From NCBI GenBank assembly GCA_963969365.1, contig OZ017749.1, positions 620,001 to 684,000 on the forward strand: 64,000 bases of DNA. Direction: 5' to 3'. Shown in pieces: positions 10,022 to 57,700 of this stretch (position 1 is the first letter of the stretch; every line of letters starts with the position of its first letter). A program made the position numbers and the translations under genes. Source of the DNA: Asterochloris sp. CNOR1. Taxonomy: Eukaryota; Chlorophyta; Trebouxiophyceae; Trebouxiales; Trebouxiaceae. The notes below the pieces were generated by a model, which saw only the letters and a program-made list of their open reading frames with translations, ran no database searches and was not told where the DNA came from.

Positions 10022-13000
10022 ATGCCTGCTGCAGGCCTGAGGCATTTCCATAGGCAGTGCACAGCGTCTCAGGGGACCTCCCTGCACAGATGCGAAGGGC
10101 AGCAGCACACCTGCCATGCCACCCTCAGTGAGTTTGCAGATGGCGACAAGCAGGGCTCTGGGTCCAGCCACCGCAGCAGGGCAAACAGGAAGCGCAAGGT
10201 GAGCAGTGGTGCCACCGCTACATCTTGGTGGTCTTGGAGCGCTGTCTCCTGCTGTAAAGCCAGCCATCTGGGCACAGTGTACACCATGCTTTGGTTTGAA
10301 TTGGGGTGCACTCTTCTGCCATCTTGTTTGGCTGAAGGAGTATCCCCTGAAAACCTTGAACCATCTGGGCCTCGCATTCATGACCTCGCTGGCGATGTGC
10401 ATCTCTCAGCCTGACGCCACCAGCAGCGTGTAGCCTGACTAGTTCTCTGCTGTGCTGCAGATAGACTCAGCCTTCAAGAGACCTGCCATTGCGACAGGCA
10501 CATATTGCATACAGAAAGTAGATTATTCGGTGAACGCCTGCTCTGCACGCCTCCATGTCAGCCTGCTTTAGCCTGCTGTGGACAGCAGCAGCCAATGCTT
10601 TTCCTGCCAGCTGCTTGCATGATGTGCCCACAGCTTTGTTTGCTGCCGTCCTGTGCCTTTAGTGTCACAAGGATATGCTGATCAGCAACTTTTCCGGCAA
10701 ACACCTTGCCCCTTGCTACTGATGCCCTCCCTTGCCCTGCCTGCAGTTCTACAAAGAACTTTCTCCCACTGAGATCACCTGCGACTTTCTGTGGTGCCAG
10801 CGTCTGGCGCCTAGGCTGAACTATCTGCCAGGGGAGCGACGAGAGGTGGTGCGTGCCGCGCTGGCCATGGGTTTTGCTGCCCACCAAGGGCAAACTCGTA
10901 AGAGTGGGGAGCCCTTCATCACCCACCCTGTGGAGGTCACCCGCATTCTTGCGGAGCTGCACGTCGATTTTGAGTCCCTGATAGCAGGTAGGAAGCAGGG
11001 GTGTGCTGCACCTGGTCCTGTGCTGGGACATCTCACCTCGGCGCCCGAGCAGTGCTGACTTGCTTGGTGACTCTGAATGCCCCTGGCGGCAGTAAGAAAT
11101 GTCTGAGTCCGTCCAACATCTGAGACGCCACTTGACAGCAAGGCTTGACACAAGGCTGCCACCTAGCATGCACTGGGCTGGCTCTAAAGGGAGAACTTTC
11201 AAAGTAGGCATTGCAGCATGGAGCACAACACCAGGCAGCGTGCTTGGCTGCAGCTCTCCTGGTGCTGCAGCCAGCTTACTGCTCCTGACATGTCTGGAAG
11301 CCATCATGCGTGGCATACACATCTGCAGGCAGCACCATGGGCACTGTTCAGAACCTACCAGGGAGCTACAGCATGCAGCAGGCACAATATGCGGGCTACC
11401 ACCTGCAGAATGCACATCTGCAGGCGGAGCCCGGGGTAGTAAACGACTGGTCTGGGAGCAATGCCATGCAGCCAGCACACTTCCAGCTGGAACACTGGCC
11501 AGCACTGCGCACACTGGGGCTGAATTGCCTCCTGCAGGGCTGCTCCATGACACAGTTGAGGACACGCAAGATCACTCCACGCCGGCCTCCTTCGAGCAGA
11601 TCGAGCTCACTTTTGGGAAGGCAGTGCGCCGCATCGTTGAGGGCGAGACGCGTTTCAGCAAGATCAGCAAGGTGGGCTGCTGTCATGCTCTTCCTGGTGA
11701 TCTCTGGGGACTGCTGCTGCAGCCGCATTGCGCAAGGGTGTCGGTGGAGATCAAAGTAAGTACAGGGTGTCTTACAAGCTGGCCTGCTGTAGTGGGGGCC
11801 CATGCAAGCTTTCACTGCACCTCAGATTGCAGAGGCAACCTGCAGCTTCTGCAAGACCAGCGTGATGGCTTGTGCTGGTTGGTGCGCGGGTCAGCTGTGT
11901 GTGGCAGCTCTGCCAAAATGTGCCTTTGCTTCCGTTGGCATGCTGCTATGGTCCTGGAGGCACATCATCTCTGTGCTTCAAGCTTTGCATGTATGCAGTA
12001 TTGGCGGCGCCTGCAGGGTGGACGTATGTTGTCTGTGTGCGCTGCAATGGAGGGACTCGGGAAAGTGCATGTCAGCCGTCAGCTGCGGCAATGACATTTT
12101 GTAGCCAGGCTGTGACCTGCAGCAAATTAGCGCATGCTTTGTGCAGGTCCAGCAAGCGGCCACTTTTTATTACGGCAAAGTAAGGCACTAAATGGTTCTT
12201 GTGGCTGGTGCAGGTGTCTACCTGCATGGACAAGGCCGACCTGAAAGCAGTTGACCTGCAGCAGCTGTTCCTGGCAATGACTGAGGAAGTCAGGATCATC
12301 GTGGTCAAGCTGGCAGACCGCCTGCACAACATGCGGACACTGGGCAGCATGCGGCCAGAGAAGCAGCAGAAGATTGCCAATGAGACTCTGCAGGTGGGCA
12401 TGTATGTGGCAGATGGTCAGCAGCATGGTACTCAAACAGCAAGGATATCAGGTCTGGTAATACATCAAGGGGCCTGTCTGCTGCACAGCACCCTGATGCT
12501 GGGGAGCACTGTGAATGGTGTTCCTCTAGCAGGCCTGATGGGGCTGTGCAGCAGCCTGCCAGGGGCTGTGCAGCATCAAGCCAGTCCCTGGCTCCTCACC
12601 TAAGCTCTCTATCTGGTACAAAGCCAAGGGCATGCAGAGCTTGTGGCAGAGCTTGTGGCAGAGCTTGATTGGTCAAACACCAGAAGGTGTCAAACGCGCA
12701 ACCTTGGCTGCAGATTTTCGCCCCCCTGGCGCGCCTGCTGGGGCTGTACAGCATCAAGCAGGAGCTGGAGGAGCTGTCCTTCATGTATAGTCAGCCCAAG
12801 GCCTATGCTGCAATGCGCAGTCACCTAGATGAGGTGGCTAAGCAGCAGGAGCCTGTGGTCATTGAGGTCAGTGCCATGTTAAAGCTCAGGCCTTTGTCCT
12901 GGAGGTGTGTATCTGGTGCCATGGCAATGCAGGGGGGTCCTCCACTGTTTGGCAAGGCACTATGCATGAGGCAAGCAGGAAGCAGCAGCCTTGCGTACTG

Positions 13001-16000
13001 GGATCAGCGACCTGCTTGAAGCCTTTTCGGCTGTCCTGGAGGTGTTCATCTGGTGCCAGGGGTGCCTCGATCAGGGAATGGAGAGACGCACTGGTACACC
13101 TGGTCAGCCATTTGAGCCAGTGCCTGCGTGCCTCCTTGGCTGGGCTGTATTGGGCGGTCCGCTGGAGGGGGCAGCTATGTAGCAGGGGCCTCTGATCCAG
13201 TGGAGGAATGGAACACGCTCACAAAGTTGTATCGGGCCTGGCACCCCGAGCATAGCTTCTGCACACTGTTTTCTGCAGTTCAGGTTGCGTGTGTGCCTGC
13301 GTCACACCTGCTCCATCCTCTGTGAGTGTGCGATGCGCCAGCGGCCTCTTGCCTGCGCTCTGCTTCTGGCCTGGCAGAGGGGTACCATCTGCTCTTCCTG
13401 CAGGCTCAGAAGGCGCTGGAACGTGCCTTGCGGGATGACCAGTATCTGCAGGGCATTGGCCAGCAGGTGGAGGTGCAGGTCCACGAGAAGGCCGCCTACT
13501 CCATTCACAAGTGAGTCTGCCTGCTTCAGAGTGCCTGCACTGCTGCGGCTGGATGGCCCTGCCTCCGAGCACTGCTCAGCTGCACAGGGCACCCTTCATC
13601 TGCTGCTGCACCCGCCCACAGCCAGAGCGCCTTGCACTTTCTCATGTGTGGCCCTCCTGGCCGTTGCACAGGTTCAGGCCGTTGCACAGCTTCAGGCCAC
13701 TCCTCAGGTGCTGCTGTATACACACAGGGCTGGCCCTTTGCGCAGCAGCAACCCTCCTCACCTGCCAGTCAAGCGCTGAGTCAGAGCGGTTGGTTGCCTC
13801 CAGCGGCCCTGCTTGCAAGAAGCTTACGCAGTCTGCCTCCTCATCTGTGCCGGCACTGCCTGCACGAGGTTTTTGCCACCTCGGTGAACGAGGTCCATTG
13901 AAGAGCACCTCACTGTGCCCAGCCTGCCTGCAGAAAGCTTGAAGTGGGCACTGCATTGCTTCCAGCCCTGCTTGCAGGAGCTGAATCGGGTTGCCTCCTC
14001 GGCACTGCTGGCACTGTCATGCTTGGCAAGCGGGGGCCAGGTGCAGGTCTGCCAAGGAATCCCAAGGCACCACCCACCGCCCTGCCTGCAGGAAGCTGCA
14101 GGACAAAGGGGGCCAGGTCAGCGATGTGCGCAACATCGCGCAGCTGCTGGTGGTCATACACCTCCCCGAGGACCACAATGCAATGCTGTTCGGGTCTGCA
14201 GTCCAGTACTGCTACCATGTCATGGGGCTGGTCCACGCCAAGTGGGCGCCCATCCCTGGGGCAATCAAGGTGGGTTCTGGCCAATGCTCAGGCAGGCATA
14301 TCGGACATTGACTCTGACAGCATTGCCCGCACCCGAGTGCTGCTCATGCTGGTCCGCAAATGTGGCTGCACAATCTGAGCCAATGCTGCTACCTGTGCAG
14401 GACTACATTGCCACTCCCAAGGCCAATGGTTACCAGAGCCTGCACACCACTGTGCTGCCTCTGGGGTCAGAGAGCCTGTTCCCGCTGGAGTTGCTGATTC
14501 GCACCGACAAGATGCACCAGCTGGCAGAGTATGGCATTGCAGGTTTGTGGATGCAGCTCACACCTGCCCCCGGTGTGGCTCATGCTGGTCCTGTGTCCAC
14601 AAACAGGCCACATTGCATGTGGTGCACTACTCTGCTGCGCCCTTTCAGTGCGTGCTCTGCAGGCTGCCTGCTGCAGGCCTGCTGCTTGTGTGGGGATGGT
14701 TTCGCCGGCCTGATTGGAGCAGTGTTCCTGTACCTGCATCAGCCTGCAGCTGGTTGCCAGTGTTCTTTCAACACAGCCATTGCTGGGCTGCTGCTTGTGT
14801 GGCGTTTTGACAGGGGCCTGCCTGTCGCTGATGCAGGGGAGAACTGGGTGGCGGCCGGCACTGTGGGCTCTGATGCCCTGGCTGCCACAGGGCCTCCACC
14901 TCAGCTGCTGCAGGGGCCAGGCATGCCGCTCAGCATGCAGCCCCTGCAGGCTGGGCTGAACAGCAGCTTGGCCAGCCAGGATTCAGACTCCAATCCAGCA
15001 TCTTCCTCAGATGAGGCTGAGTGGGATGGGCTCCAGGGCGGTGGCACCTCCCCGCATCATGCAAGGTGGGGTTCTGCTTCTCTGCGATAATTGACAGAGT
15101 AGCAGTGCATCCATGTGCGGCAGCACTGGATAACATCATGAACAGTCTGCACAGGACTTACAGTGCAAGGTTGCACACGCCTCCAATGCTGTGGTGTAGC
15201 CTGGCTTGAGCAGCACCGTACCTGCTCCGTGCCGCACTGGAGATCATGAGGCGGTGCATTGCATGTGTGTGGTGATGTCCGCTGGCAGGTGGTCACGCAC
15301 AATGTGCACAGCGATGGCAGCCTCACCTTCTGTAGCCTGGCCCAACGATCATGGGCCAATTCCTCATCTGTGCCGCACAAACTGCTGCGGGGTAGTGCAC
15401 TGCGTGCCCAAAGGAACATGAGCAGCGCACCAATGTGATGAGCTGGCAGCACTGGCAGACGCTTAGCACAGTGCCCACAATATTTTCACCTCACGTGGTG
15501 TCTGCATCAGCCTGGCTCAAGCACCACAATGGGAGCAGCACTCCCACCCTGGGCCAGTGCATAGCAGGCATGTGCTGGTGGCACCAGGCAGGCCCTGTTC
15601 ACAGTGGCTGCAACTCAGTATTCCCACCATCCTGACTTGAGGCCCCAAGGTCATCAAGTAGACATTTGCAGCCAGACACAAGGTTTACAGCTGTTTGTTG
15701 CTGTGCAGGCGGCACAAGCTGCAGGGGTATGCAAATGGCAAGGCAGTGCCCGGGGCTGCGCAGCGGCATGGTGGGCGGAAGCTCAACATGCAGGTGAGGC
15801 CAGCGCAGAATCTGAAAGGGTGCTCGCGCAGCATGGAGTTGGTGGACAGGATGCCATGAACACCCACGGGCATGTGGCCTGCCCGGTTGCAGCAGCTGGC
15901 TAAGTGCAGACAGCAGCCGGGGGGGGGGGGGGGCAACTGCATGCACCGACGTGAAGCTAACTGCTCATGCAGAGGAGTAACCTTGAGCAACATAGTCTGC

Positions 16001-19000
16001 ATGCCCAAAGCATTCAGCCTGCTAGGGCGCTGCTGCCCAAGTCTGACAGTTGCACACGTTTCACCCAGAAGCAGTTGCATTGGCGGTGTGCGGCCCAAGC
16101 CACCCTGCCAACAGTCGCTTCCCATCGGCCTGCAGATGATGGCACGTCGCAGAAACTGGCTGACGTCCATCAAGAGCTGGCAGGAGGAGTTCCTAGGCAC
16201 GCTCTCTGCTCAGGAGTTTGTGACCTGTGTCACTCATGACCTCTTGGTCAGCAGGCTGGTGTTTGTTTTCACCCCATCCGGCGACCTGATGCGCATGCCC
16301 AAGGTCAGCTGTCTGAGTGCCCTGGCTGGGCTGCCGTGAGAGTCTGAGTCCCCTCATGCTGCTGGTGTCTTTGAGACTATGCACTGCCTGGACGTGAAAT
16401 GCGCTCAGCAACTGCATGTTGTGGGCAAGGGCTATGTTGCAGTACGCTTCAGCCTGCATAAGCTGCTGGGCGCCAACCGTGCTGATGAGGCATGGTGTTG
16501 GCTGTGCCTGGGGTGGAAGTTGCCTGACCACCTCTTTGTCTGCCCTCAGCTGACCTGCTTTTGCATGCATGCTGCTACTGTCTGAACTTCCAGCATCCGT
16601 TGCCCTGAGTCTGCCCCCATGTTTGTATCTACACTATCAGAGATCCCCTCCCAATCTCCTATCAAGCTCTGCATGTACCAATCTCCTGTGCCCCAACACT
16701 CCCTCATGGGGAGGACCGCCCAGCTTGCCTTGCAGGCCGCCGACATCATAAGGTCTACCCACCGCGATCACACTGCTGTGGGCTGGCAGATGCTGCACCT
16801 GTCTCAGCCTGAGTCTTGTGGCGCTGAAGCTGCCCTGTGTGCTATGCAGGGCGCCACCGTGGTGGACTTTGCATACCATGTGCACACTGCTGTGGGCAAC
16901 CAGATGATCGGCGCTCGCGTGAATGACAAGATGGTGGCCCCCAGCCATGTTCTGGTCAACGCAGATGTGGTGGAAATTGTCACCTACAATGCAAAGCCCT
17001 CGCCACAGCACATCGCGAGGCACAGGGTGAGCTGCCTGATGACTTTCCTTGTGTGTGCTTCAGAGTACAGCCAAAACATTCCGCACAACAACTTGATGGT
17101 AATGCGTAGCAAGAAGCTTGTTGCTTTGCAATTGCTGTGCACGCTGCTGTGCACGCTACCTTTCCTGAAGACCCTGGTGGCCACTCCGCATCACCAGGCA
17201 GGTCATCAAGAGGCTGATTGAGGTTGTGTAGATGATGATCAAGGCTCTGTCAAGATGCCGCACTGAAAGGGCTGGCTTAGCTACCTTCAGCTAAGCCTGG
17301 CAATTTGAGTTTTGCGAAATGAGCTGCATCAGCCTGGTGCATGATGTCTGGCTTTGCTGCATGGCTGGAGTTCCTCAGCCACAAGCTGACAGCACTGTGA
17401 TGTGTGCAGGCCTGGGCAGACTATGCCAAGACGCGCAGTGCAAGGCATAAGCTTCTCAAGTTTCTGAGGGAGCATGATGAGCCCCAGAACCCTGCCCCTG
17501 GCGAGGTGAGCTTGTCCTGCAACCATCAAATCCTTCTTGTGTTGCAGCCTTTACAGCTTGGGTAGAGCAGCAGCCTCAAGCTGTTGAGTCAGGGTTGTCT
17601 CCCATGCTCAGCAGCTCTTTGACAAGCAGGTTTTGAAGTTGAGGACGGCAACCTGCAGTGCTTCACATGCGCGCAATTGCTTCTGGGGCCGGTCCTTTGG
17701 ACCGTTGTCACTCGACTAGATCCTGCTGCTGCTGCAGCAAGCACAGAGCCATGCGGCACCTTTAGTCAGCCTTCTGTGGATGGGCTCTCATGCCTGCCCC
17801 ATTGCTGTTCCCTTTCCTCGATGCAGACAGATGAAGTACTTGACCCTAGACAACAGGCTCCTGCCAAGCGGCTCCGGGCCTGTCTGTAAGCTTTCCTCAT
17901 GGCTGCTGTCTGTGTTGATGCAGGCCGGCGCCAATGGACCTGCCGAGTCTGCGCGGCAGGGGCTGCAGAGCCATGCCAAAAGACCTGCCGAGTCTGCGCG
18001 GCAGGGGCTGCAGAGCCACGCCACAGTGGATGACTGGGGTGATGAGATGGATTCTGATTGGGGACAGGAGACAGCCGTATCAGACCCTGTGGAGGCAGAT
18101 GCAGGTGAGAGTGCTGCACAGGCCACGGGCTCCCGCAGGCTGGCAGCAATACCTGCCAAAAGTGTTCTGCAGCTATCATGTGGCTGCCACGCAGCAAGTG
18201 TAGGGTTCTAGCCAAGCCTTGCATGTCTCTCTGTCGCAACTGCTGGGACACAGAGTCACACTGGGATGCCAGCTGCTTTGTCAGGGCTCACCAGGGCTCT
18301 GCTGTGGTGTCTGCCTTGTGAAAAGTGGTCGCACTGCTGTGATGTGAGGCCTCTGTGGCCATGCAGGTGACACACAGCAGCAGCCGCCAGCGGCAGAAGC
18401 TGCCAGACCTGTGGCCCCGGCGCGACATCAGCCTGTGAATGGGCGCCAGCATCCTCCCCTCCAGCTTCAGACAGGCAGCCAGACAGTCCTCTCATGGCTG
18501 GTGAGCATTGACACCAGCCTAGCTGGCGCTGCCTGGCGGTCCCCCCCCCTCTGGCTTGCACCTTGCCATGGCAGCACAGCTGCTGTGATCCCCTGTGTGT
18601 TACTGTGCGCACCTAACCTGATAAGCACTTGCGGCTGGGGCACATGTGTTTGACTTACCATGTGCTTTTGTGCTGCAGGCTGTGTCCTGTAGCGACCATG
18701 CTGGCCTTCTGGCCTCGGTCGCCAAGGTCATCTCTGATCACGGATTCAATATTCAGGTGCCTGCACAACCATCTACTGTGTTGCCGGTTTGCTGCTCTCA
18801 TGCTATGTTGCCTTTGGTCATTGCAGCTGCTGACAGGGGCTTTGCTGTGCCCTGCAGTCTTATTCTGGAACCGCTGGGAGCCGCCACAATCAGTTCGAGA
18901 TGAAGTTTCAGATTTTTGGCCCTGCTGCAGCAATAGATGAGTTGTGTCAACTGGTGAGCAAAACAGCAGATTCGCATGCTGTCATGTGTTCCAGTGCATG

Positions 19001-19748: not shown

Positions 19749-25665
<5,917 letters not shown>

Positions 25666-28015: not shown

Positions 28016-28264
28016 GTAGTAACGCTGACTGTGGCATATACAGCAATCAATCTAGGCAGTACAGAGCAAGCAAGGGACCAGTGTGCTGGATGCATGTGCT
28101 TGCCAATACTGAGGCATGCATTGTGTGGAATGCGTGCGCCACAGAGAGCCACATGACACGATCTGCTGGCGAGCCCAAAAGGTGGCTATACAAGTCCCAA
28201 GCCTTTTGCTGGCAGACCCTCAATGCTTGAGCAGCACAAGCAGCCACCAATGGCACTCTCAGAT

Positions 28265-28429
28265 TTAGGGGGAAATGGTTGCATGAGCAAATCGTCCCAA
28301 TCGCGTCAGAGGCAGCATCCGACCTTTCCGGACAGACGCATTAAGCTGCCATAGGCAGCTAGACCGACCTTCATCTCTGGTGACAAGGATGTATGCACCC
28401 GAGCAGGCTGTGCGTAGGATCTCTGTTGC
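28265..28429 (-). CDS. Orphan terminal exon, unknown protein
   Basis: After a plausible acceptor (ttctcccag) a 54-codon frame opens, EILRTACSGAYILVTRDEG, continuing SSCLWQLNASVRKGR to TAA. It looks protein-like but matches no family I recognise. It lies between the stop of DCAF13 and the CinA-like gene, on the same strand as both. No upstream exon could be placed in the 250 bp available, so it may be a remnant, an alternative 3' exon, or chance. Confidence 0.3.
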   Translation of the reverse strand, partial: ATEILRTACSGAYILVTRDEGRSSCLWQLNASVRKGRMLPLTRLGRFAHATISP

Positions 28430-28677
28430 CTGGGAGAACAGAAAAGGCGCGCAGGTGACTGCACACCAAGGCGTCTAGCAACGCCAAGCATCGATGAAAA
28501 GACTGGCTGCGTTCAGATTCCAATGCATTTAACTGCCTGATTAATTGTTGTGTGTCACTTGCTGGCTGCCTAGAAGTGAGTGAGCAAGTACATGTCCATC
28601 CAGTCTGAAACATTTTGGGACTTCAATCAATGCTGTCGGCTGAGCTGTGAAAGCAGGGAGGGGGGATGGTCCAGGAC

Positions 28678-31600
28678 TCATTCAACCTGCGCAACAATCT
28701 TGCGCTTTCTGGCGGGCTTGACCTCAACACTGCCAGGGGCGCTGTGCTTGACGCGATTCTGCTGCTTGACACGGTCAGCATTGATCATTGTCTGCCGAAG
28801 CTTGGTTGCCTGCAAGCGGAGGTCAGGGGTTGAGCCTCGAGCTGACCATGATGGCAACTAGATCAAGAGGATATACGCCAGGCAGCCTGCAGTCTGAACA
28901 CGGACGCATCTTGCAGATAGGCAGGGGCAAATTTGTTCAGCTCTGTTGTACAAGACTGCCAGATGCAAATCACAAATCGGATGAGACCTCACGCACCTTG
29001 TAGATGGGCTTTGGTAGGTGCTTGTGGCGCACAATGCGCTTGACCTCGGGCAGGTGCTGGTAGCGCTGCACCAGGGCCTGACTGTACTCCTGCTTGGAGC
29101 GCTCGCGGGGCAGCTGCACTCCCAGCTGGGCAGAGGCTTCAGCCTGCACAGGCAGCAGCCCCTATGCCACGGTGCTTGAAATACGCAGCAGGAATGACTC
29201 TGGAAAAAAGGTTTGGCAGGGTACTTGCGCTTGGCCAGGCCACATCCATCTGCAGGTGTTTTGGAGGCCAGCAGCAGGGTGTACTCTGTAAGAAAAGCTT
29301 GGCGAGGTGCCAGCGCTTGGCCAGCTTCAACTGGCTGGTCAGACCACCAGACAGTGTGCTACAGGTGCTGAGGTCACAAATTGCCTTTCGACATGCAGCA
29401 TGTTCACGGCAGAGGCTGTTGTGTTCAAGATAGAAGAGGAGTGATGGACTGGACGCAGACAGGCGGGTGCAGCCCAGTTGCAGGCAGTCAAGGCTGCAAA
29501 GCCAGCTGCAGGTTTCCAGCGATCATGGTCAGACACCCCACCTGACATCATAAGCAGCATTGGGTTGTGACCACACACCACCACCAGGTTGAGCCCCGAG
29601 TTCGCCCAAGAGGGGCATGGCCCACCCATGGACACACTCTGAATCGGAAAGGGGTTCCTACTAGGAGTGTGACCAGGCGTTCTGGTGTCCAGGCAGACTG
29701 CTCATCCTTGAATGATGTGACGCATCTGTCACCTTCCAGATGCGGACATTCATGTCGTCGCTGCCCGAGAAGACGTAGGAGCCGTCGCCGCTGAAGCGCG
29801 TGGCAAACACGCGCTGCATGCGCTTGGTGTGGTACACCTCGCGGCTGTGGCCACCGTTGTGGGCAAAGATGCGCACAGATCTGCAAGCAGCGTGGTGATT
29901 GTTGTTTGTGACATGGCGGCGGCAGCTGCTGGGTTGTAGGGCTGTGGCTGTCCTTGTGGGCAGAGATGCGCACGGATGAATTGTGAGGCTGTGCATGCCA
30001 GTTGGGCAAAGTTGAGCAGGCACTGGTGTGTGTGGTTGCTGTCGGTGCTGTGTGCCAGCGCAGTGGCTGCGTTGTGAAGTGTGATGTGGTTCGGGCATCG
30101 AGTGACACAGACCTGCAGGCAAGCTGCATCATCTGTCCTCAAATTGAGGCAATCAGCCTCTGTCTTGAGAATCTCTGCATGGCATCACAGAGTGAAGAAT
30201 GCAAACAGACCTGCAGGCAGCAGATGGCGGGTTGTTGACATCTGCGGGAAAGCCCCAGGGTCTGCTGTGTGCTGGGCTCAGCCTGCAGGTGTTGCCAGTT
30301 GTGCGCATGGACATTCAGAAGGGTGCGAGACCATTTGCTGTACTGGCCAGGTCCTCACTGTCTGCTGAGGAGATGGCCTACTTCACCAAAACTGCCATGC
30401 TCACCTGTCATAGCCGCCGGCCACGAACTCGCGCCCAGTGGGGGAGTAGTCGACGTCCATGACTGCCGACACAAAGTCCTGGTGCACACACGCAGCGCTG
30501 TCCAGCCGCCGCATATCGTATGTGTACAGGCAGCAGTCCTCGTTGGCAACCGTGAAGTTGAATGCCTCCATGGGGTTCCAGGCTAGGGCATTGCTGCGCG
30601 TCTGCAGATCAGACAGATGTGAAGCAATTGCTGAGCCAAGCTAGCAGTGCTTGCACTCAGCACAGTGGAGGGAGTGCAGCACAGGGCCTGCCAATGAAAA
30701 GCACAGCAGCACCACTGCCTGTGCGCCCTGGGCCCTCAACAGCAGCAGATGTGCCGCTGCTAAGCCAACACAGCACTGTTGGGGGCCAGACAAAATCACT
30801 CTTCCGAAAATGAGCAGGGTCGGGGAGCAGCACTCAAAGTCTGTCCAGCCAACAGTTCCTTTTATTTTTCACACCTGCATGACCAGCTTGCGGATGGGGG
30901 TGGCGCTGCGCAGGTCGTACAGCGCAATGCCCCGGTCACTGCCTGAGGTGGCAAAGACGTCCCCCTCCACCTGCAGGGGAGGTGAGTGCTTCAGTCTGCA
31001 TGTCTGAAAGTGATCAGGTCTGCCAGCAGGTGCGCCAGCCACAGGACGAGCAGACAGCTTTGGCGATGCAGTGCACAGCCTGCCAGACCAGATGTATGAG
31101 GGAGGAGGCGTGTAGCCTAGGGATATTGCTCTTCTGCCCTTGACCAGCCGAGAGGCCTCATCTGGCACAGGGATTACATTTGGGCTGGACAGGCTTCAAC
31201 GGAGCCCTACCGGTGGGAGCAGACACTGCTCCGCACAAGAGCTGGGCCGGCATCGCAACATGCTCACCAGGTCGAAGCAGCCTAGGTCAGGGGAGGACCC
31301 AGGCAAGCAGCACAGGGACCTGACCAGGCCGAAGCATACGCTGATGAGCAGGAAGCCCTGGACATGCACCACAGGAGAGACTCACCGGGTTGAAGCGGAC
31401 GCTGGTGAGGCTGTCTGCACCCCACGAGAAGCTGTGCACAGGCTGGGAGCGGCTGTGGTCCCACACATCCACCTGCTGCCCGGCTGTGGCAAAGGTGTCC
31501 CGCTGCCAGTGGTGGTCGATGCCCCTGCATGGGAGCAGAGAGATGGGTAGACTTGCAAAGACGTTGCAGTCTGACATGCCCGCGGCCGCGGTGCAAGCCC

Positions 31601-33244
31601 TCACGTTGGTGCAAGAGCCCAGCTGAGCGCAGCATGCACTATTGTCACAGCAGCCCTACCTGAAGGCATGTTTGCCGGTCCACTGCAGCACAGGCTGGCT
31701 GTCCTCCACGACAGGCCCACCCTCAAAAGGTGCAAAGGGCACCTGCAGGCACGCGGTAGCGTCTCTCAGCAAGTGCTATCGCATGCTTGAACCACACCAT
31801 GAAGACCGCTGGCAGCCAGCCCTGTGCATCTTCACATCCCAAGCAGCGTGCGACTTCAGCATTTCAAAGAATGAAAAGCAGGCCGCCAAGCAGGCAGTGC
31901 AGCAGGCATGAGTGCAGCCCTTGCCTTCCACAGCTTGATGGTGCAGTCTGAGCTGCAGGAGACTGCAGCGGTGCCATCGCGTGTGAGGCTGACCCCACGC
32001 ACAGCTGCCGTGTGCCCCAGCATCTTGCGCAGGGCTCGATGCGCAGCCAGGTCCCACAGTCTGCAGGCGGCAACCAAGCACAGCAGCTCATTGAGGGGTT
32101 GCACATTGCTTGAAGTCAAGGGCTGAGCGCAGGAGGTGAGCCTCTGTACAGTGTGGAGTCTTGGGCATGTGTATGCAGGGCACCTGGCAGCCAGGTTCCA
32201 CAGTCTGCAGGTGTAAGCATGGCAGCTCAGGCAGAGCTTGTGCAGGCAATAGCCTGAACATGCTTAGGGCTGAAGGCAGGGGTTGAGGCTCCAGACAGAG
32301 TGAGTTGCAAGCTGGGTGCTAGGGCCCAGCGCAGTCACACGGGCGGGGGTGCGCAAGCAGTCCCTGTGCCAGACACAGTTCAGCCACGCTAGTGGCCCCG
32401 GCAGACACGCTGAAGGCTGAGGTCTGCAGCCACCAGGTCCTGTCTGCCTCTATGCAGGACTCTGCCTGGAGCATGAGGTGGCCGTGAGGTAACCTTTCAA
32501 GCCTCATGCTCACCTGATCTCGCCGTCTGCACATCCTGAGAGGAGGCAGTTGATGCTGGTGGGGCTCCTTGCCAGGCAGGTCACCCCGTCGTCATGGGGC
32601 AGCGCCGCCAGGAAGGGCTTTGCAAAGACCTTGTTGAGCTTCACAGCATTCAAAGCCCTGCAGGCAAACAGGTTGGAGCCTAGCGCGCACGGCATATCCT
32701 AGAAAGTGCACCGGAATGGCCACAGTGCAGCCTTACAGCATTCAGGTTGCTGCAGACATGGAGCCCTTCACTCATGCAGTGTGCCGCTTTTATCTGATTG
32801 GGGTCACCGCCAGCATTACATGCCTTTAGCATGAGACATAGGGGCAGTTTAAAAAATCCAGCCTCTGCGTCCTGGGCGTGAAGCTTCACTGCGCTGCCTG
32901 TCGCTGGCAACTCAGCAGGTCTTCAAGCCACAGAGAAAGCAAGCGCGATGTGCAGGCACAGGAAGCCAAGCAAGCCGCTGTCTGTTTGCCATCTGTGATG
33001 GCTTGAATACCAGCTGCCAGGTCTGCTCCTGGCCGACAAGGCTCAAGGCGGCAGTGCCACAGTGACTAAGGTGATCTTGCTGTGCCCTGCGGTGCTCTGC
33101 AGTACTACAACTGCACCTTGTATACTCAACCGCCTTCTCAAAGGGGTGCAGTGTTGGGTCCAAGTTCTTGTGCACCTTGCGCAGGTCTTGTGAGCGTTCC
33201 CTGGTGAACTGCTCAGGGTCTCTGTTGATGACCTTGAGCTTCAT
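28678..33244 (-). CDS. DCAF13: DCAF13/SOF1 WD40 ribosome-biogenesis protein
   Basis: Ten exons on the minus strand: 33244-33117, 32657-32514, 32060-31925, 31742-31660, 31524-31386, 30970-30875, 30601-30405, 29880-29733, 29143-28997 and 28809-28678. All phases agree, giving 449 aa against about 445 in animals. Nearly every block matches the family: MKLKVINRDPEQFTRE at the start, FAKPFLAAL, SGCADGEIRLWDL, TAGQQVDVWDHSRSQP, TSGSDRGIALYDLR, AWNPMEAFNFTVANEDC, DYSPTGREFVAGGYDRSV, SREVYHTKRMQRVF, SGSDDMNVRIWK, LPEVKRIVRHKHLPKPIY and a Lys/Arg-rich tail. The protein works in the small-subunit processome in the nucleolus. The intron after the exon ending at 31925 uses a GC donor (AAG|GCAAGG). Introns hold decayed copies of neighbouring exon edges. 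Confidence 0.95.
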
Positions 33245-39700: not shown

Positions 39701-40995
39701 TGGGGCGCCTGCTGCTGCTGCAGCGGAGCCTGAAGACTCTGACATGCTCAGGTGAGGCTGCCAGCAGGGTGCTTCTGGGGCACTCCCGTAGCACCTCCTG
39801 GGGTGTCTTCCTCCTTGGCTTGGAATCTGGAGCATGCAGAGCGCGGTGGCTGCATGACTGGACTGACTGCCTGAGTGTGCCTGGCTGTGTAATTTGAGGC
39901 AGCAACTTCATCAGGGCGGGGTCTTCAGCTGGGCTGCTGCCAAGGTGGCTCATTGCCACATGTGGACCTGCCCTTGAAGTGCTCGACAGGCCGTCCTGAC
40001 AGACTCACTGCTTGGCAGGCACTGGCTTGCTGACGTCACAGCACTAGGAGGGCTTCAAGGGCGTGAGATGTTGCCATGGGCTTCCCAATCTTCTCTCGGT
40101 GGCGCCCTTACCAATGCTGCAGCCCATGCTGCAGGCAAGCCCGACCATCAACTGTGCTAATCACCTGTGATAGCCTGCCAAGGAGGGTGCCATTGCCAAG
40201 TTGGCCTTTGCCTGAGATGGTTGGGCGCCACCAAACATGCTGCCAAGCCCCCTGCAGCCCTGGTAGCAGCACCCCTGCGCCGACCAGTCTGTTGTCACTC
40301 TGTCGTGTCCGGTGTTGCAGGGTCATGCCTAATGCTGGCCCTCGTCGCAGCCAGCCTGTCAGTCTCACACGCTATATAGACAGCTGACATCACACGTCCT
40401 GCTGCAGGCAGGTCACAGAGATACTGGCAGCTTGCGGGCCCATGTTGGCGCACCCTTTCCTTCATGTGGCCTTTTGCCCATCCTAACAGCACTTGAGATG
40501 CTACAGCAGACCCATATGCCTGTCAATTGACATGTTGCCCTTCTGAAGGCCCAAAGTCCATGCTGCAGGCAGGCCGCAGAGACGCTGGCAGCTCTGGGAG
40601 CGGTGCCGCTGCGCCCAGCCAGCCCACTTGGCCCCAAGTCTCCCAGCCTGGTCCCCCGCAGGCAGCGCACGCAGGTGTACCAGGGCGCCCCTGGCGAGCG
40701 CCGCGGTGGCTCCCAGTTCATGATGGTTGGCTCAGACGTGGTCCACCTAGCTGCGGGGACCTCCCTGCACTCAGTGCTGGGGGTGCCCTACACAGTCAGG
40801 CAGCGGCGGGGCAGCCTCACTGGTGGCCAGGCTGCTGCCAGGCGAGGCGGGTTCTGCGTACGTGGGGGAAGGGGAGCAGCCAGCCCTGGCACCAACCCCC
40901 AGCGGCAGCAGCTGCCAGCGGCGGCAAGGGCAGAGGCCGTCTGGATGAACGCGGTGCTACCGCCACGCTTCCATGACCCCGGCAGAGGGGCCTGA
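33720..40995 (+). CDS. Unrecognised Gln/Ala/Pro/Ser-rich protein, about 920 aa
   Basis: Exons 33720-33885, 35172-35427, 35532-35610, 35720-35964, 36244-36334, 36587-36964, 37325-37445, 38006-38164, 38429-38674, 39157-39751 and 40569-40995 join without frame conflict. The N-terminus is a small folded-looking segment (ESFDATFELNEEQDGALRKL). The rest is low complexity: Pro/Ser with a basic patch (PPPAKRVE), a hydrophobic helix (ALQALQLLVFIL), an Ala-Gln alternating tract (QAQAQTAQARAAATQAQAQ), and long Gly/Ala/Pro/Gln stretches with Arg-Gly (RGRGLGRR). Such composition is common in nuclear co-activators and RNA-binding scaffolds, but no domain supports a specific call. The antisense strand is open over much of the low-complexity part, which is a composition effect. 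The first intron (1.3 kb) may hide another exon (see 34190-34430). Confidence 0.6.
34190..34430. other. Segment open on both strands within an intron
   Basis: The plus strand reads MTSQLHISEWQDLLHVAAG and continues to a GTGTGT-type donor. The minus strand reads GLEDLCLEHEVRRHIDD and LEQHACSHMQQILPL. Both look protein-like and neither matches a family I know. It could be an extra exon of the Gln-rich gene or a fragment of another gene. Confidence 0.3.
34500..35090. other. Stretch of different base composition in an intron
   Basis: This piece is visibly richer in A and T than its surroundings (for example ttactgtaagaagtaatatc near 34580) and lacks the frequent TGCAG and CTGC words of neighbouring introns. 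It may be an inserted element. No repeat partner, terminal repeats or coding frame seen. Confidence 0.3.
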
Positions 40996-41778: not shown

Positions 41779-44700
41779 TCAGACGTGGCCCTTCTCCTTC
41801 AGCTCGCCGATGAGCTTCTCAAGGCTGCGCTGGTCCTTGGCAAAGCCTGCAGCCAGGACGAAGTCTCACACGTGCTGCTTGCCCTGCCAAAGGCTGCAGG
41901 TCTGTGCAGCGTCCAGGCTAGCCAAGCCTGGAGTGCAGCTCACAGAGGCCGGAACGCTGTTGCCCACCAAAGAGCAGCTCACTGCCAGGCCAGACACAAG
42001 TGCGCAGCACTGCGACCCTAAGCAGGACTGCGGCCAGGTTGCAGGAGGGGCATCTGGGCAGCGCCCAGCAAAGCAATCCACAGGCAGCATAAAACCCTAG
42101 GGTTCACTTGAACCCAGCAGGCGTCTCCCATCAGCAGGCCACCGCCAGCCCTGCACAGACAGCACAGGACTGACGAGACGCAGAGCGCTGCCTGCCCGTG
42201 CAAGGTAAGCTGCCTCCCCACCATCTCAGACCTGCTTCTCTGCCGGCACACTTGAAGGCTCCCCAGGCACAGGCAACTTATGCTGGGCAAGGATGCAAAG
42301 TGCTGAATGATGCCCCGCGTCTCTTTCCCAACACTTAGTCGCCCGCCCGGGGGCAGGCAGCACACCAGCATTTTGTTTCAGCACCCTCCTGCAGCTGGCG
42401 CAGTAAGCTGGTCCCCATGGAGCACGCCCCACAATGCAGCTCAAACTGCACTTCTTCAAACACGAAGCACTCTGGCAGGCTGCACAGCCCTGCTTCCAAC
42501 AGATCACAACCCACAACGCAGGATGGCTTGGCGCAAATAGTCCTACTCCACCATTAGTGCCCCCCTGCAGCTTGTGCAGAGTTCCCTCCAACTGCCCTCC
42601 TGCAAGCTTTCCAGGGAAACAGCGACAGCATGTCACCCTGAAGCTCTGTCTCCTGGCCCCAGAAGGCAGGGACGGTGCATATCTGGTGCTGTCGCTACGG
42701 CAATCATCCAAATGCTCGTCCTTCTTGCCCTCCTGCAGGTTGCCTGCAGCTATCTGGTCCTCCCTGTGCATCTGATTTCACTGTACACATGCCCAGCCCA
42801 CCCTCCAGAGCCCTCCCAGAGGCGCACTGTGCAAGCACTTGGCAACACGCTCACTGCTTCCCCAGACGCTGCGCCTGCAGACCTGCCAGACTCACTCCAG
42901 TACAGGTCCTCTCAATCCTGTCGCACTGGCAACATCCCGCAGCCTCCCACCCAGCATCTGGGGACACTTTTCACAACCTCCTGCTGAAGTTCAGACCCTC
43001 CAACAGCATGTCAGCAGCACGACCCACCCTCGATGCCCTCCCGGAGCTTGTCCACCGCCATCTGGTCCTCCCCATGCATCTTGTCAAACAGGTCCTTCTT
43101 CTCGGCGTGCAGGTCCAGGTGGGGCTCGTTGCAGCCGCCCATCTTGGGCCACAGCTTACGGGGCAAGGGGTCCTTGCAGGCCTCCAGCTGCCCCAGCAGA
43201 GCGGGGGAGATGGTGATGTTGTCGCACCTGCAGCAGGTGACATGCCTCTTGCTGTGTTTGGCCAGGTCTGCACATGCACAAGGGCTCTCGCACAGATGCT
43301 GCACACTTACAAGGGCTCTTGCACAGCTTCTGCTGAGGTACAAGGGCCAGCGTGCCACATCTGCAAACGAGGCGTGCTGCTTGCTGGCTTGATCACAACC
43401 TAGCCATGTACAAGAGGTGGACAAATGGTGACGATGTGCTGCCCAGCAGGATGGGCGGCAGCATAAAGGCTTGTGGATGCTTGCAGAGTGTCTGGCAGTG
43501 GTCCAAAACGCTTGATGCTGACCGACCAGGGCCTCTGCATTGGTGCAATGGCAGCTACATGCATCCTTGTTGATAACAAGAGTCTCCCAGAGTACTTGAT
43601 GCTGCAAGTGTCAGGGGTCCAGCCTGCTGACTCCCCGCACTGTCATGCTGACTGCAATAGTGAGAAGTGTCGCTGTTGGCATATGACCTGAACAGTATGA
43701 ACTACAAGCTACCCTGACAGCTTAGGGTACTGACAGGCAGCACCCAGAGAGAGTCCCAGCATAGAATGGCGGCTTCAACCACATCTGCAGTCTGTGCAGG
43801 TGCGTCATGAGCGCTCACCCTGCCAGCTCAGTGATCTCGCCGACATTCCTGAAGGAGGCTGCCATCACAATGGTGGGGTACCTGCAGGGGCAGCAGCACA
43901 GCATCTCAGCAGGCTGTGATTTGCTCGCCCCCACAGCAGCACTGATCAGCGTGGCATGCTGCATTGTGCGACTGGAGACATACTCTGCAGGTGCGGCCTT
44001 CACAGCCTGCTGTGCATTCAGGATGGTGGCAGGTGCTCACTTGTAGTGCTTGTAGTACTTGTAGATGCGCTGCACTGATTTGACACCAGGGTCCTGCATA
44101 GCAGCGATGCAACTATTGATTTTTATCTACGGGATCTGCCACAGGCAGCGCAGCAGGCCAGCAGACCTTGTGCCCCCAGCAAAGTCCCACACGCCTGCCC
44201 TCTGCTGCCATTGCAGCTGGCGTAGCAGGCCAGTAGCAGCCTGAGTCAGCACAACATGCACCATGCAGTTGCAACCTGCTCAGCCAGCATCACCAGCTCC
44301 TCAGACTGCACACAGGCTGCATGCTGCTTCATACCACATCCCCAACATCTTTGTGTTGTGGGCAAGCTGCTGTCTGCAAGCTCTCGACCGGGGGCAAGTC
44401 TGCAGGCCCGTCCCCAAGAAAATCACCTCGGGGGACCTCAGAGAAGGTTTGGGCCCCACTTAAAATTAGCGACGGGGCATGCCCTGCTTAGGTGCCGCCT
44501 CATCTTGTGTCTGTAGTGGCCCTCCCTTACAGTGATTGTGTCATGCAGTGATGCAGAGCCAGCGCTGACCTGCTCGGGAGAGTACCCGTCCACCCCCTCG
44601 GCCTTCTTGTACCAGTCCATGATTCGCCCCACAAAGGGAGAGATCAGGGTGGCGCCGGCATCAGCACAGGCCACGGCCTGCAGGCACGAAACACTTCTCA

Positions 44701-51705: not shown

Positions 51706-54700
51706 TCATGTGCTGCAGTGCCAAGCTTGATCAGCCTTGCAGGTGTGCATGAAGGGCACCACACCAGCCTGGCAGGGTGACGCTCCTGCCCTTGGGGCCG
51801 CGCCGCTGGTTCTCTCAGAACCGCTGCATATGCTTTGGGCCCCGCTGCTGCTGCTGCTGCGTGCTTGCTGCCCCGGCGGCAGGGCGTCGAGGCTCTGCAC
51901 GGTCTGCACAAGGGCGTGCAGGTCCTCAGGCTCCCAAGAGGCGTGAGCGCTGTCTGCCAGACGCCCTGCTGAGGCTTGGGCGGCGCCGGGGCCAGGGGCT
52001 GTGCCCTTAGCTGTCAGCTTTGCTGGCAGGGGTTGGCCAGGGGCTGGCTGACCTTTTGCTGCCTGCATGGGGCAGTGATGGGTCCCTCGGGCACAGCGAC
52101 CAATGCCTGCAACTGGCCTGACTAGGGTCCAGAAGTCTGCCGCCTGCATGGGGTACTGGTGGGTCCCTTGGGCGCAGCAGCCTTTTGAGTGGCTTGTGTG
52201 TGGTGTGTAGCCCATCAGGGACAGGTGTGCGCGGAGCTTATCGTGCAAGCAGCATTGCAGCCTCACTCTGGCAGGCGGGCCTGCCAGAAGTGCTTGGGAC
52301 GACTGGACAACGGCTGCATAGTGCCTGACTTCCAAAGACCTCTGCCAACAGCTGCACAGGCGCCACAGAAAAGTAACAACAATTTGATTTAGCTCACCTG
52401 CATCCTCCCAACGGCCTGACCCACCGCCTGCAGCCCCAAGCTGTCTGGCGCAGGCTGCGGCTGCCCTGCTGCGTCCCGCTGCTGCTGCAGGCCATGTGCC
52501 TGCCCCAGCACGACAGGCTGCAGGGTGCCTTCGCGGTCGCTACCCTCAAAGAGGACGGCGCTAACTGCGTGCTGCAGGCGCTGCTTTATACGGCGGTGCT
52601 CTGCCACCTCGGCCCTCAGCGCCGCCACCTACAGACAGGACGGGGCTGTACGTTGCAGGCATTGCATTACCTGATGGTCCGCAGCACTCAGCATGGCCAC
52701 CTGCAGGCAGGATGGGCTGGGGTGCTGCAGGAGACCATTGACGGAGTCCTAAGATGAGCTGCGCGCTGCAGAGTTAGCTCACAGCCCCGCCTGTTGCAGC
52801 TAAGGGCGGAGTGCAATGCTGCAGGATAGAATTTTGAAGTGGCCTGAGCTTTGCTCTTGTGCCTCAGCCCTGCCTGCCACCTTCTGCCCCTTTCAGGGCA
52901 CTCATGACTTCCTGCCACATCGCAGCATGCCCTCAGCACAGGCATCAGGCTCACAGTGTGCATGCCCCGACTGCTGCTGCCACAAGCAATGAAGATAACA
53001 CAACAACCTTCCCGTCCAATGACGCTCCAACTCGCCGTCAGCTGCACTGCAGCGCCCGCTCAGCGCCGCTACCAGCTGTTGTACTAGAAAGTGCTGCGCC
53101 CAGCAAGCTGCAGCTGCAGGGTCCATTGTAGGAGGCCAGTGGACAGACTTCCTTAAGAGGGCCCACCTCACTCTCTGCCACCGTGCAGCGCCCACTGAAC
53201 GCCTCCAGCAGCTGTTCCTGCTGGGAGGAGCTGCGCCCCACCTGCTGCAGCTGCTGGTCCTTCTGCTGCGTGGCCTGCAGCAGGCCCTGCACCTTTTCCT
53301 GCAGCTGGGCTGTGGCCGCTCGTAGCTCCTCAACCTCAGCACCCTCTGCCTGCAGTCGGGGATGCAGGGCAAGTGAGTGTAATTTCGACAGGGCTGCACA
53401 GCAGCCTGTTGCAGCAGCTAACATAATTACCCATGCATGCTCAGCCTGAGAACAGGAGAAGTGAGTTGCCAGGTTACTGCAGTCTGAACACACACCCAGC
53501 GGTGCCGCTTATGCTCCAGCCTAGACATCCTTGTGAGCTCTTGTAATTTGATCCCAGTGCACAAGCAGCTCTGCCGCCTTTCACTCGAGCCTGAACAGCT
53601 TCCTGAGCTCTTTCATCTGGTTCAGTATACAGAAACCATGATAAGAGTCTGTCGCACTGCAGCCCTGCAACTAGACATTCCAGCCTCAGGGAGCAACCAT
53701 CTTTGCAGAAGCTCTGCTGCAACACAGACAGACAAACAAACACACGACCACACAAACACACAGGACGCCTTGCAAGCTGAGGGCACCTGCAGCTCCGCCA
53801 GATCCCGCTGCAGCCCAGCAACTCTCTGCCCACGAGCAGCTGCCTCCCCTTCAAGCTCCTGCACTCGCGCCTGCAGCCCCTGCGCAGCCTCGACCTGGGC
53901 TGCCTCCCCCTGCCTGGCAGCATCCAGCTGCCCCAGCAGGCCCTGTGTATGAGCTGCCCCCTCGGTCAGCTGTGCCTCCAGCTGGTGAACCTGGTGCTGC
54001 AGCGCCGCCTGCCCGTCTGCAGCGCTGCGCTGGGCCTGCTGCAGAGCTGCGCGGGTGCTCTCCAGCTCGATATGGGCTGCCTGAGCCTGCTCCTGGGCAC
54101 GTGCCTGCAGAGCAGGACCCCTCAACTCACCCTGCATGGCGCTTTGTGTGGCAGTGTCTGGACCTGCTGTGGGGCTGTGTGAGTCGCCACCTGCCCTGCA
54201 CAAGTAAAGATTGGAGTGACCTCAAATGTTTGTGCCCAATGCTATCATCATATCTTGTCCCAAGTAACCCGCAAATAAGCTTCCTGAGGCTAAAAGAAAC
54301 CAAGGGGAAGCCATGCCTGGCGCTGCTCCGGGGAGTGGGCATACGCCGACAACCATGTGTGGCATACCTGCATCATGCCGGACCTGCAACAGCACTGCGT
54401 GTGCCGCAACCAGCTTGGTGTGCACTGCCTGGCCCTGCACAGCATGCCGCCGCAGCTGACGCCGACAGCTTTCTGTGGCACATTTGTTGCACGCTGGCCC
54501 TGCTGCAGGGCTGCACAGGCCGCCTTCAGCTTGGCAAGAGCTGCCTGGCCCTGCTGCTGGGCCTGGGCTTGGACCACATAGGGTGGTGCCAACCGCAATT
54601 GCAGCTAGAGAGGAAGGAGCCACGTGGGCCGCTTTGACCTGCCTCAGCGTGCAGCTGCACGGGGCAACCTAGCTTGCACATCATAGGTCGAAGTCAGCCA

Positions 54701-57700
54701 CTGCGCGACAAAGTCACCTCATCCCTGCCTGGCCACATGGCTCATCCCTATGCACACCTCTTGGCAGGCCAATCCGTTTGTATAGCCCATACCGCAGCGT
54801 CATTCCCAATAATGCTTGCCTGGCCTCCCTGCAGAACCTCCACCCGCTGCTGCAGCACCCCAGCCTCTGCCACCGCCGTAGCCCTCTCGCTCCTTGCAGC
54901 AGCCAGCTGACCCTCCAGCTCGTCGCACTGCTGCTGCAGGCTGCGCTGCTGGGCAGCGGCCTGCTCGCCTGCAGCCGCCAGCTGTGCGGCGGCAGCCTGT
55001 GCTGCTGCCGTGCTGGCTGCCTGCACCTGCTGGTGCGCTGCCCGCAGCCCCTCGGCTGTGGCAACGGCTGCCTCAGCTGACGACTCAGCTGCCTGCTGGC
55101 GCTCCTGCAGGCACGGGTCTGCAGTAGTTGACAACAAAGGGACGAGCAGCAGCAACCACCTCAGCTGAGGGCCACGGGCTGCCCACGCGCACTCCTATTA
55201 CCATGCAGGGCCTCAGTGCTTCAGGTGGAGCCAGCCAAGCAGCAGCATCCGCTTCAGCTGAGGACTTGGCTGCCAGCAGCCGCTTCTGCAAGCGTCTTGT
55301 ACTGCCTCCTTGCGCAGCTGACTTAAAACTGATAAGGGCACGCGTGCCAGGCAAGACTGGTCAGCCTCGTCAGATTCCACCTGTGCCTGGGAAATCTCCA
55401 GCAACAAGCACAGCACTGCCTTCCAACAAAAGAAGCTGGTACAGTCAGACGCGCCAGGCAATGTTGGTCAGCCTTGCCAGCTTCCATCTGTGCCTGGGCA
55501 GGCTCCTGCCGCAGGCCATACAACGCCTGTTGTGGACATGCAGTTGCCAGGGCCCACAAATGGCCAAAGTGCATCGCGCAGCCCTGCAAGCCCCCACCTG
55601 TGCCTGCGTCAGCTCCTGCTGCAGGCCACGCGCTGCCTCCTGCGAGGCCTGCAGCTGTTCAGCGATCTCCTGGTGGGCAGCATCCCTCTGGCCGAGCACC
55701 TCCTGGCTCTGCTGCTGCGCTGCCGCCTGGGCTTCCGCCAAGCCGGCCTGAGCAGCCGCCAAGCTGCCCTCCAGAGCGGTGACTTGGGCCTGGGCAGCTC
55801 TCAGTTTGCGCTGCAACTCTGCACAGTCCAGATTGGACTGCGAGGTCTCCTCCTGGGCTGCCCTGGCAGCCTGCAGCTTTGCAAGGGAACGTGGTCTGGC
55901 ATTTCTGCCCCGGCACCAGCCCAGCAGTGCAGCAGGGCAGGGCCGCAGCTTGAGTCAGAAAGCACCTGGCACCTCACTCACATGGGCACCTGATGTGCCA
56001 CCTCAGAGGCCGCTTTGGCGCAACAGCTGCAGCACATACACGGCCAACATTAGAAGCAGCACCCCAGCCAAGAATCATGTGGGTCATCTCAACCTGCTGC
56101 ATGGCCTTGGAGGCCAGCTCGGCTGCACAGGTGTTGCGCAACCTGCACTTTCAGTCAATGCACATCATCAGAGCTGACCCCTCCAACCCATGCTTCAAGT
56201 GTCCCTACCTGCTGCGCTGCCTCTGACACCAGCTTAGAGTCGAAGGCCTTTCGTTGCAGCTCCATGATGCGGGCAGCCTCCCCCCGCAGCTGCTCCCGCA
56301 GGTCCGCCACGTCCCCGCTCCTGTGCTCCAGGTCACGAGCCAGCTGCTGCACTTGCCGCTGTGCCTGCTCCAACTCAGCTGCGCGTTCCTTCAGCTCTGC
56401 GTCCTGCAGGTGTTTGTGGAGATGAAGTTGTGTTCCTGTCCTTCCGTGTGCAGACTGGAATGACACTCTGTGAATGCAATCAGCGTATGAGGCTGCACAC
56501 TAAGGGCAGACCGAGAGCACATGGCGATGGTTACAGGAATGGACGCATGTGAGGTGCGCAGGTGCAACCAACAAACCCAAAGGGCAGCATCAAGTGTCAG
56601 TGGACTTGATGCCGGCTGCAAGGGTGCCTTTTGTGCTGCAGCCCTATTGTGCCCACCCTCTCACGACATTGGCGGGTCCAGTTGCCTCCTTCAGCCTGGG
56701 CTGCCACTGTGGACTCTACCTGCCGCTGCAGAAGCTGCTGAAGCCTGCAGGGCCACCACAGCAGCATCAGACACAGGCAGCAGGGCAGCAGCATACATTT
56801 CGCGGAGGCAGTGGCAGCAGAGCTGCGCCAGGCAGGGCTTGCCGAGGCCCAAGTTCAAAGGCTGCCAGACACATGGCCCTATAGGCAGACCCAGCTCATG
56901 TGGTAGTAGCCATGTGCACTGGGATTGCAGTAGACCCTGATGTTGAGTAGAGGGGGCCAAGGGCTGCATGCCCCCAGCTGCACCTGATGCAACTGACAGA
57001 CCTTGCTGCCATTTGCAGCTGACGACAGACTTTGCCGCCCAGCGCAAGCCCACCTGCTGAGCTCGCTCTGCAGCTGCAAGCTCTCTGCAGAGGCTGCCCC
57101 CTTCTGGCGCTCGTGCTGCAGCATCAGCTGCTGCTGCTCCTGCTGCTGCTGGCGAGCAGCCCCCAGCTCCTGCCTCAGGTCGCGGCACTCCTGCTGCAGT
57201 GCGGCAGCCTGCTGCTGGTGGGCACTGAGCTCATGCTGGGCCCGCTGCAGCCTGCGGGGCACACACCAGTTATTCAGTGTATCATGCGTCGGCACCTCAA
57301 CATAGACCAGTGGCTGCCGCAAGCCAGCCGATGTGCATGCCTGGCACGTCTCCTGCAGTGCGGCAGCCTTTTGTTGATTGGTGCCCAGCGCGTGCTGGGC
57401 ATGCCGCAACCTGTCAGGTGCATGCTGAGCTCCTGAACTGCTGTGTGCACCCAAATGCTAGCGTTGCAGCTACGCCATGTGCTGCAGCCTGCTGCAGGGT
57501 GGCACACTGCTGATGGGTGCCCAGCCTGTGCCAGGCCTTAGGAAGCCTGCAGGGCACCACAGCTGCTATGAGCAGCCACATGGTTTGGTCGCATGATGCC
57601 AGCAGGACATGAAATCCTGAGCTGAAAGGTTGCTTACAGACTGACGCAGAGGTTGCTAGTGGCAAGCCAGGGTGCATGCTGCAAGCATAACAGATATGTC

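Follow-up and report, generated by a model that had tools for sequence, protein, structure and literature searches.

In the available portion of a study of Daphnia introns, repeated staggered double-strand breaks were proposed to lengthen introns passively, and internal direct repeats were recorded in 55 of 90 new introns and in 100 of 617 established ones (PMC4202315); intron growth through staggered-break repair is already published for Daphnia. In the potato RdRp gene, a tandem duplication crosses an intron–exon boundary and a second one, of 83 bp, lies inside an intron of the same gene (PMC4974935). According to the accessible parts of three further sources, fill-in by CST and Pol alpha-primase at break ends makes small tandem duplications, described as the most frequent kind among short insertions (<100 bp) in human DNA (PMC8355091), novel intron positions in Drosophila are attributed to sliding or tandem duplication (PMC2891723), and intron sliding is itself disputed (PMC7730772). 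Here, we describe copies of exon edges, commonly together with their splice sites, in the introns of the green alga Asterochloris sp. CNOR1, starting from a stretch of 64,000 nucleotides (the window; contig OZ017749.1, positions 620,001 to 684,000). Tandem exon duplication, or internal gene duplication, affecting whole exons or introns, is said to have been described by Gao and Lynch in 2009. A literature search, with subscription papers mostly outside its reach, found no study that counts junction-spanning copies across an algal genome.

Exon-edge copies in introns are a general pattern, also outside the window. The sample comprised 314 kb from three contigs, namely the window, 200 kb of a contig termed C1 and 50 kb of a contig termed C2, or 0.56% of a genome of 56.38 Mb (21 contigs, GC 0.578). 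A self-trained gene finder with exon-length costs provided the gene models (69 genes, 667 exons). Each exon–intron junction was represented by a 40-mer of 25 exon and 15 intron bases, which was compared with its own intron and, as controls, with 300 length-matched intron pieces from other genes; a junction was scored as positive when its own intron exceeded all 300 (expected for 1 in 301). The test covered introns of 100 to 1,000 bp in genes with a score of at least 25. Own-intron matches of this strength were obtained at 63 of 1,037 junctions (6.1%), comprising 33/516 donors and 30/521 acceptors, and were spread over 32 of 64 genes and 61 of 535 introns, or about one intron in nine. The excess was present in every block (14/208 junctions in the window, 41/662 in C1 and 8/167 in C2). 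Reverse-complement junction queries were positive in 9 of 1,037 cases (6/516 donor, 3/521 acceptor), exon-interior 40-mers in 15 of 758, slightly above their own reverse complements (9/758), and intron windows in 35 of 882. Mid-intron windows (10/413 positive), the addition of which makes the intron baseline 45/1,295, were kept out of that baseline because their target is half an intron only.

The splice consensus learned by the gene finder is TGCAG/G at acceptors and AG/GTGAG at donors (slash, junction), and CTGCAG and related words are extremely common in the window, consistent with the strong acceptor consensus. With 500 occurrences on both strands, CTGCAG outnumbers every other 6-mer of the window and forms part of that consensus, so that chance or base composition might be thought to generate the matches; yet introns of other genes, of like composition, match far less. 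Dinucleotide shuffles agree: about 100 shuffles of the own intron were all beaten by 37/516 donor and 39/521 acceptor junctions, with about 1% expected. In a local scan, 327 of 31,208 40-bp windows had a direct partner of score at least 32 within about 600 bp; distant sequence gave 10.5 such windows and the opposite strand 17. Given the other-gene controls, the local scan and the shuffles, chance and composition were rejected, and the probability left to them is negligible. An initial annotation had proposed the pattern from at least six genes of the window, six of them named, and had named dinucleotide-shuffled and other-gene introns as comparisons; the pattern stands up to both and, as the counts from C1 and C2 demonstrate, reaches beyond those genes.

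Among the six genes, RSH1, GH1, DCAF13 and a coiled-coil gene pass the strict junction test, whereas a transaldolase gene (0/20 junctions) and a Gln-rich gene (0/24) contain near-copies only. Homology checks cover the window models, and the C1 and C2 models rest on the gene finder. The GH1 model matches its Pfam family over residues 5-474, the transaldolase model is homologous over residues 49-359, and the RSH1 model contains HD, RelA_SpoT and TGS domains above cut-off, with ACT just under it. Residues 1-423 of the DCAF13 model align with the DCAF13 chain 7mq8_LU; the model (25948-33244) also extends into a CinA-like domain (Pfam PF02464, residues 451-535), representing either a true fusion or two merged genes. 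A UPF0029 gene, RSH1 and GH1 were joined into one model by the gene finder, in which 6 of 68 junctions are positive, five in GH1 introns (three of them spanning) and one, also spanning, in RSH1. DCAF13 has 4/26 and the coiled-coil gene 3/30 positive junctions. The individual copies are as follows.

12523..12591, plus strand: RSH1, exon bases 12723-12768 copied twice into the intron, the two copies overlapping (35/46 and 31/38 matches; 22-bp repeat)
12966..13061, plus strand: RSH1, end of exon 12714-12866 and adjoining downstream intron sequence (12829-12924) copied into the intron, degenerate (69/100, spacing 137)
13923..13939, plus strand: RSH1, short intronic copy of the acceptor of exon 14092-14269 (16/17, spacing 158)
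22324..22360, plus strand: GH1, end of exon 22054-22245 (22216-22255) copied into the intron, with GC in place of the donor GT (33/40, spacing 108)
22914..22937, plus strand: GH1, start of exon 23021-23132 and its acceptor copied into the intron, AG intact (20/24, spacing 92)
23797..23868, plus strand: GH1, 26-bp unit in about 2.8 copies, from 10 bp inside exon 23605-23806 across its donor into the intron (Tandem Repeats Finder)
28904..28922, minus strand: DCAF13, exon end copied into the intron, with AT in place of the donor GT (16/19, spacing 87)
29954..29977, minus strand: DCAF13, intronic copy of an exon start, from the junction onward (22/24, spacing 97)
31320..31348, minus strand: DCAF13, exon end and donor copied into the intron (22/29, spacing 61)
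32133..32216, minus strand: DCAF13, upstream intron with a decayed duplicate of all of exon 31994-32060 and of its acceptor (first 25 bp 24/25, AG intact)
40396..40439, plus strand: Gln-rich gene, acceptor region of exon 40569-40995 copied, acceptor-spanning (38/46, spacing 160)
42726..42773, minus strand: transaldolase, intronic copy of exon segment 43034-43081 (38/48, spacing 308)
52684..52715, minus strand: coiled-coil gene, acceptor and exon start copied into the intron (25/32, spacing 72)
55263..55512, minus strand: coiled-coil gene, one intron with a donor-edge copy (55475-55512) and an acceptor-edge copy (55263-55293; 31/39 and 24/31)
57343..57413, minus strand: coiled-coil gene, start of exon 57054-57251 copied into the intron (53/71, spacing 159)

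At the GH1 26-bp unit, the donor junction beats 300 of 300 controls, and 42 of 46 positions match without gaps at offset 26. The GH1 exon 22054-22245, the end of which is copied with an altered donor, is backed by a Pfam match; GH1 acceptor 20677 was not significant in the junction test. In the longer RSH1 copy (12966..13061), the strong core lies within the intron and the junction alone is not significant. The transaldolase segment ends 6 bp before the donor and does not reach the splice site. Genome-wide searches with two loci returned only the loci themselves, including the DCAF13 copy at 32133..32216, for which no further copy was found, and a GH1 query added one 80% match of about 70 bp on contig C20; with these three loci examined, introner elements were rejected. 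The C20 match pairs GH1 intron piece 23961-24031 with 60689-60764 on the minus strand and is the sole non-local match observed for a copy-bearing intron. GH1 paralogues, at 43-68% protein identity, are too diverged for an empty-site test.

Further features of the window include a 45-bp tandem duplication inside an RSH1 exon (17929-18023; about 2.1 copies, 92% matches), which adds 15 codons in frame, and, among intron-rich genes, a long open frame without introns at 1561-2505, minus strand (314 codons stop to stop, modelled as 1561-2367). Rfam gave no match in the window.

Across the sample, 52 of the 63 positive junctions have a copy that spans the junction in register (25 donor, 27 acceptor), with 12-40 aligned bases within the 40-bp junction test. 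This agrees with the initial annotation in that copies include the donor or acceptor, although the RSH1 copies at 12523-12591 correspond roughly to exon bases 10-55, and no acceptor is detectable in them. Donor-spanning copies have spacings of 26-261 bp and acceptor-spanning ones of 72-414 bp, so that the lower end of the proposed range, 26 bp to about 300 bp, holds and the upper end has to be raised. The GT or AG is retained in 36 of the 52 spanning copies, compared to about 39 expected from the mismatch rate elsewhere; the splice dinucleotides of copies thus decay at about the background rate. Spanning copies exhibit no frame preference, as 37 of 52 spacings are not multiples of 3.

Some copies could in principle be unannotated or alternative exons, or could reflect gene models that are wrong at these sites. 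The Gln-rich copy at 40396..40439, the upstream member of its pair, was itself called a 36-bp exon by the gene finder and may be exon or intron, and the DCAF13 model lacks part of an exon near residues 116-143. Intact copies also score at least as high as the used site at 9 of 16 donors and 7 of 20 acceptors, a comparison in which the choice of similar copies favours such scores. However, the result is unchanged in a stringent subset (47/746 positive) in which every intron had to contain a stop or frame shift and the flanking exons had to measure 60 bp or more. The absence of a frame preference likewise argues against functional exons, as does the DCAF13 whole-exon copy, which aligns over its length at 60/89 with several indels. 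As a general account of the copies, overlooked exons are thus very improbable. One gene, gene32 (minus strand, C1 block, about 122000-124500), was omitted from this subset and the other sensitivity tests; its model contains several similar short exons and many overlapping local repeats, and it looks like either an exon-repeat gene or a repeat-rich region.

The direct orientation of the copies, the complete head-to-tail units at some sites and the similarity of the flanks indicate that local duplication is the likely source. Neither the junction test nor the local scan contains an excess of inverted copies. Because soft-scored refinement of event extents over-extends many events, event classes and unit completeness were taken from separate analyses. 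Among 120 events, the median spacing is 108.5 bp, and an ungapped match covers at least 0.9 of the spacing, as in a head-to-tail unit, in 15 and at least half of it in 35, most of these full or half units being short ones. The clearest long unit is a 79-bp one in C1, comprising 41 intron and 38 exon bases, which is repeated head-to-tail with 74 of 79 matches. Older copies appear as islands.

In our view, the copies are probably the scars of ordinary small local duplications tolerated in introns, for which a special intron-growing mechanism is seemingly unneeded. Such duplications, mostly tandem and with spacings of about 20-200 bp, would strike gene sequence more or less at random. A duplication wholly within an exon would usually be lost by selection, one wholly within an intron would be kept, and one spanning a junction could also be kept, in that splicing may continue at the outer, exon-side site and leave the protein unchanged. 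The inner copy of the exon edge and its splice site would then become intron sequence and decay neutrally; as by-products, introns would lengthen passively and cryptic splice sites would become available. Junction copies would be conspicuous because their exon-side partner is constrained, and the pair therefore remains recognisable longer than two intronic copies. Within this model, we infer the tandem origin of the older copies, staggered-break repair as the molecular cause and the use of the outer site in the cell.

The distribution of events is broadly what random placement followed by selection would produce. Pairs with both members in exons account for 1 of 80 events at spacings of 60-250, though 15% of random placements are exon-only, and the exon/exon events (three cases only) have spacings of 36, 45 and 69, all multiples of 3. 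Of the 120 events, 44 are intron/intron and 41 intron/junction. If 60-160 bp units are placed at random, junction events should make up 0.49 of the junction and intron events taken together, or about 0.57-0.60 after correction for visibility; the observed share at spacings of 60-250 is 40/66 when exon/intron pairs are counted as junction events and 30/56 without them. As the junction share lies near this expectation, there is no need to assume that duplication is aimed at junctions, and the initial proposal of a process working specifically across them is not supported.

Three observations nevertheless weigh against ordinary, random tandem duplication as a full account. The first concerns completeness: among the 95 events with a spacing of at least 60, an ungapped match covers at least 0.9 of the spacing in 2 and at least half in 13, and a complete tandem unit is therefore unseen for most long-spacing events. 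Most of these copies are islands far shorter than their spacing, as would be expected if they were short local insertions templated nearby, such as those of error-prone end joining, rather than duplications of a whole unit. Templated insertions should yield inverted copies too, however, and these are not in excess. In addition, flanks are similar at the same offset in 43 of 88 hits, whereas mismatched controls reach about 4%; this speaks for decayed tandem units rather than short templated insertions but does not prove them. Templated insertion is accordingly considered an unlikely source of the copies.

The second and third observations concern position. In a profile of significant windows, the proportion is 6/350 at 80 bp into the exon, 33/425 over the last 40 exon bases, 35/450 (7.8%) across the donor, 38/453 (8.4%) across the acceptor and 11-20 of 379-460 (2.6-5.4%) inside the intron. 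Exon-edge windows thus exceed the intron interior 1.6-2.4-fold, whereas a decay model with an exon rate of 0.25 of the intron rate, in which exon-anchored windows remain visible 1.4-1.6 times longer, gives a value of 1.3. Moreover, non-genic sequence is poorer in pairs, with 3 in 48 kb compared to 44 intron/intron pairs in 169 kb of introns, which is not expected of a uniform process unless untranslated regions (UTRs) are constrained. Both observations would fit a duplication process that prefers junctions, or spliced and transcribed sequence, and copies exon edges more often than at random. Against such a preference, the gene bootstrap places the junction-to-intron ratio of 1.59 in an interval of 0.98-2.65, the event classes are close to random placement, and the non-genic sequence is, by inference, mostly UTR. 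A preferential process of this kind is fairly unlikely to explain the copies; a modest junction preference of duplication is possible.

There is good support for the lengthening of introns by local duplication in this genome. This part of the initial annotation is borne out by the direct copies, by the head-to-tail units found among them and by intron length, the median being 417 bp for introns with a copy and 239 bp for those without. Copy-bearing introns number 78 of 591, rising with length from 0/54 below 100 bp through 10/156 at 100-200 bp, 15/159 at 200-300 bp and 19/126 at 300-450 bp to 32/85 at 450-700 bp, with 2/11 among longer ones; longer introns also give more room for copies and are likelier to be mispredicted. 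Intron creation by the same kind of duplication is not visible, since the two edges of an intron are alike only at chance level. The donor edge and acceptor edge of the same intron, compared as for a Rogers-type gain, beat all 300 controls in 1 of 460 introns, with about 1.5 expected, and in 8 of 460 at a looser level (at most 2 of 300 controls). Classic intron gain by AGGT duplication was therefore rejected.

A more far-reaching interpretation, which we put forward tentatively and regard as doubtful, is that much of the intron length of this lineage stems from recurrent local duplications of about 100 bp, acting mainly in transcribed introns and with some preference for exon edges. The cryptic exon-edge copies left behind, their splice sites almost at full strength, would constantly feed alternative splicing and could give rise to later shifts of splice sites. 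The leads are the scarcity of non-genic pairs, the excess at exon edges, the rise in copies between introns of 100-200 bp and those of 450-700 bp, and the intact copies that score like used sites.

Under the simpler model of tolerated local duplications as well, junction copies constitute a countable record of intron lengthening. Because about one intron in nine keeps a recognisable copy, the rate, size and fate of such duplications would be measurable across relatives. The 36 spanning copies with an intact GT or AG provide a ready list of predicted alternative splice sites. The pattern also carries a warning for annotation, as a copy may pass for an exon, which the gene finder may have allowed in the Gln-rich gene.

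Compared to the known systems, the Asterochloris copies share with internal gene duplication in the sense of Gao and Lynch (2009) the internal duplication of gene pieces and differ in that mostly exon edges are affected. As far as the available text of each source goes, they resemble the CST and Pol alpha-primase duplications in being direct, local and small, although those arise from engineered nicks in mammalian cells (PMC8355091). In Drosophila, gene structure is likewise changed by tandem duplication, but there exonic sequence with a proto-splice site is duplicated and one copy is intronised (PMC2891723). Direct repeats near splice sites also lie close to intron borders; in the accessible part of that work the two borders of one intron are compared and insertion is argued, whereas a border-to-border excess is absent from the 460 introns examined here (PMC11782384). 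The potato RdRp gene provides a boundary-crossing tandem duplication in which a new intron arose, as confirmed by RNA reads, whereas in Asterochloris the copy seems to remain in the old intron (PMC4974935). With Daphnia, the copies share direct repeats inside introns, explained there by staggered breaks; the available portion of that study compares new introns between populations and reports repeats of 4-12 bp shared with the adjacent exon, whereas the copies in Asterochloris are longer, at 12-40 aligned bases, and include the exon edge together with its splice site (PMC4202315).

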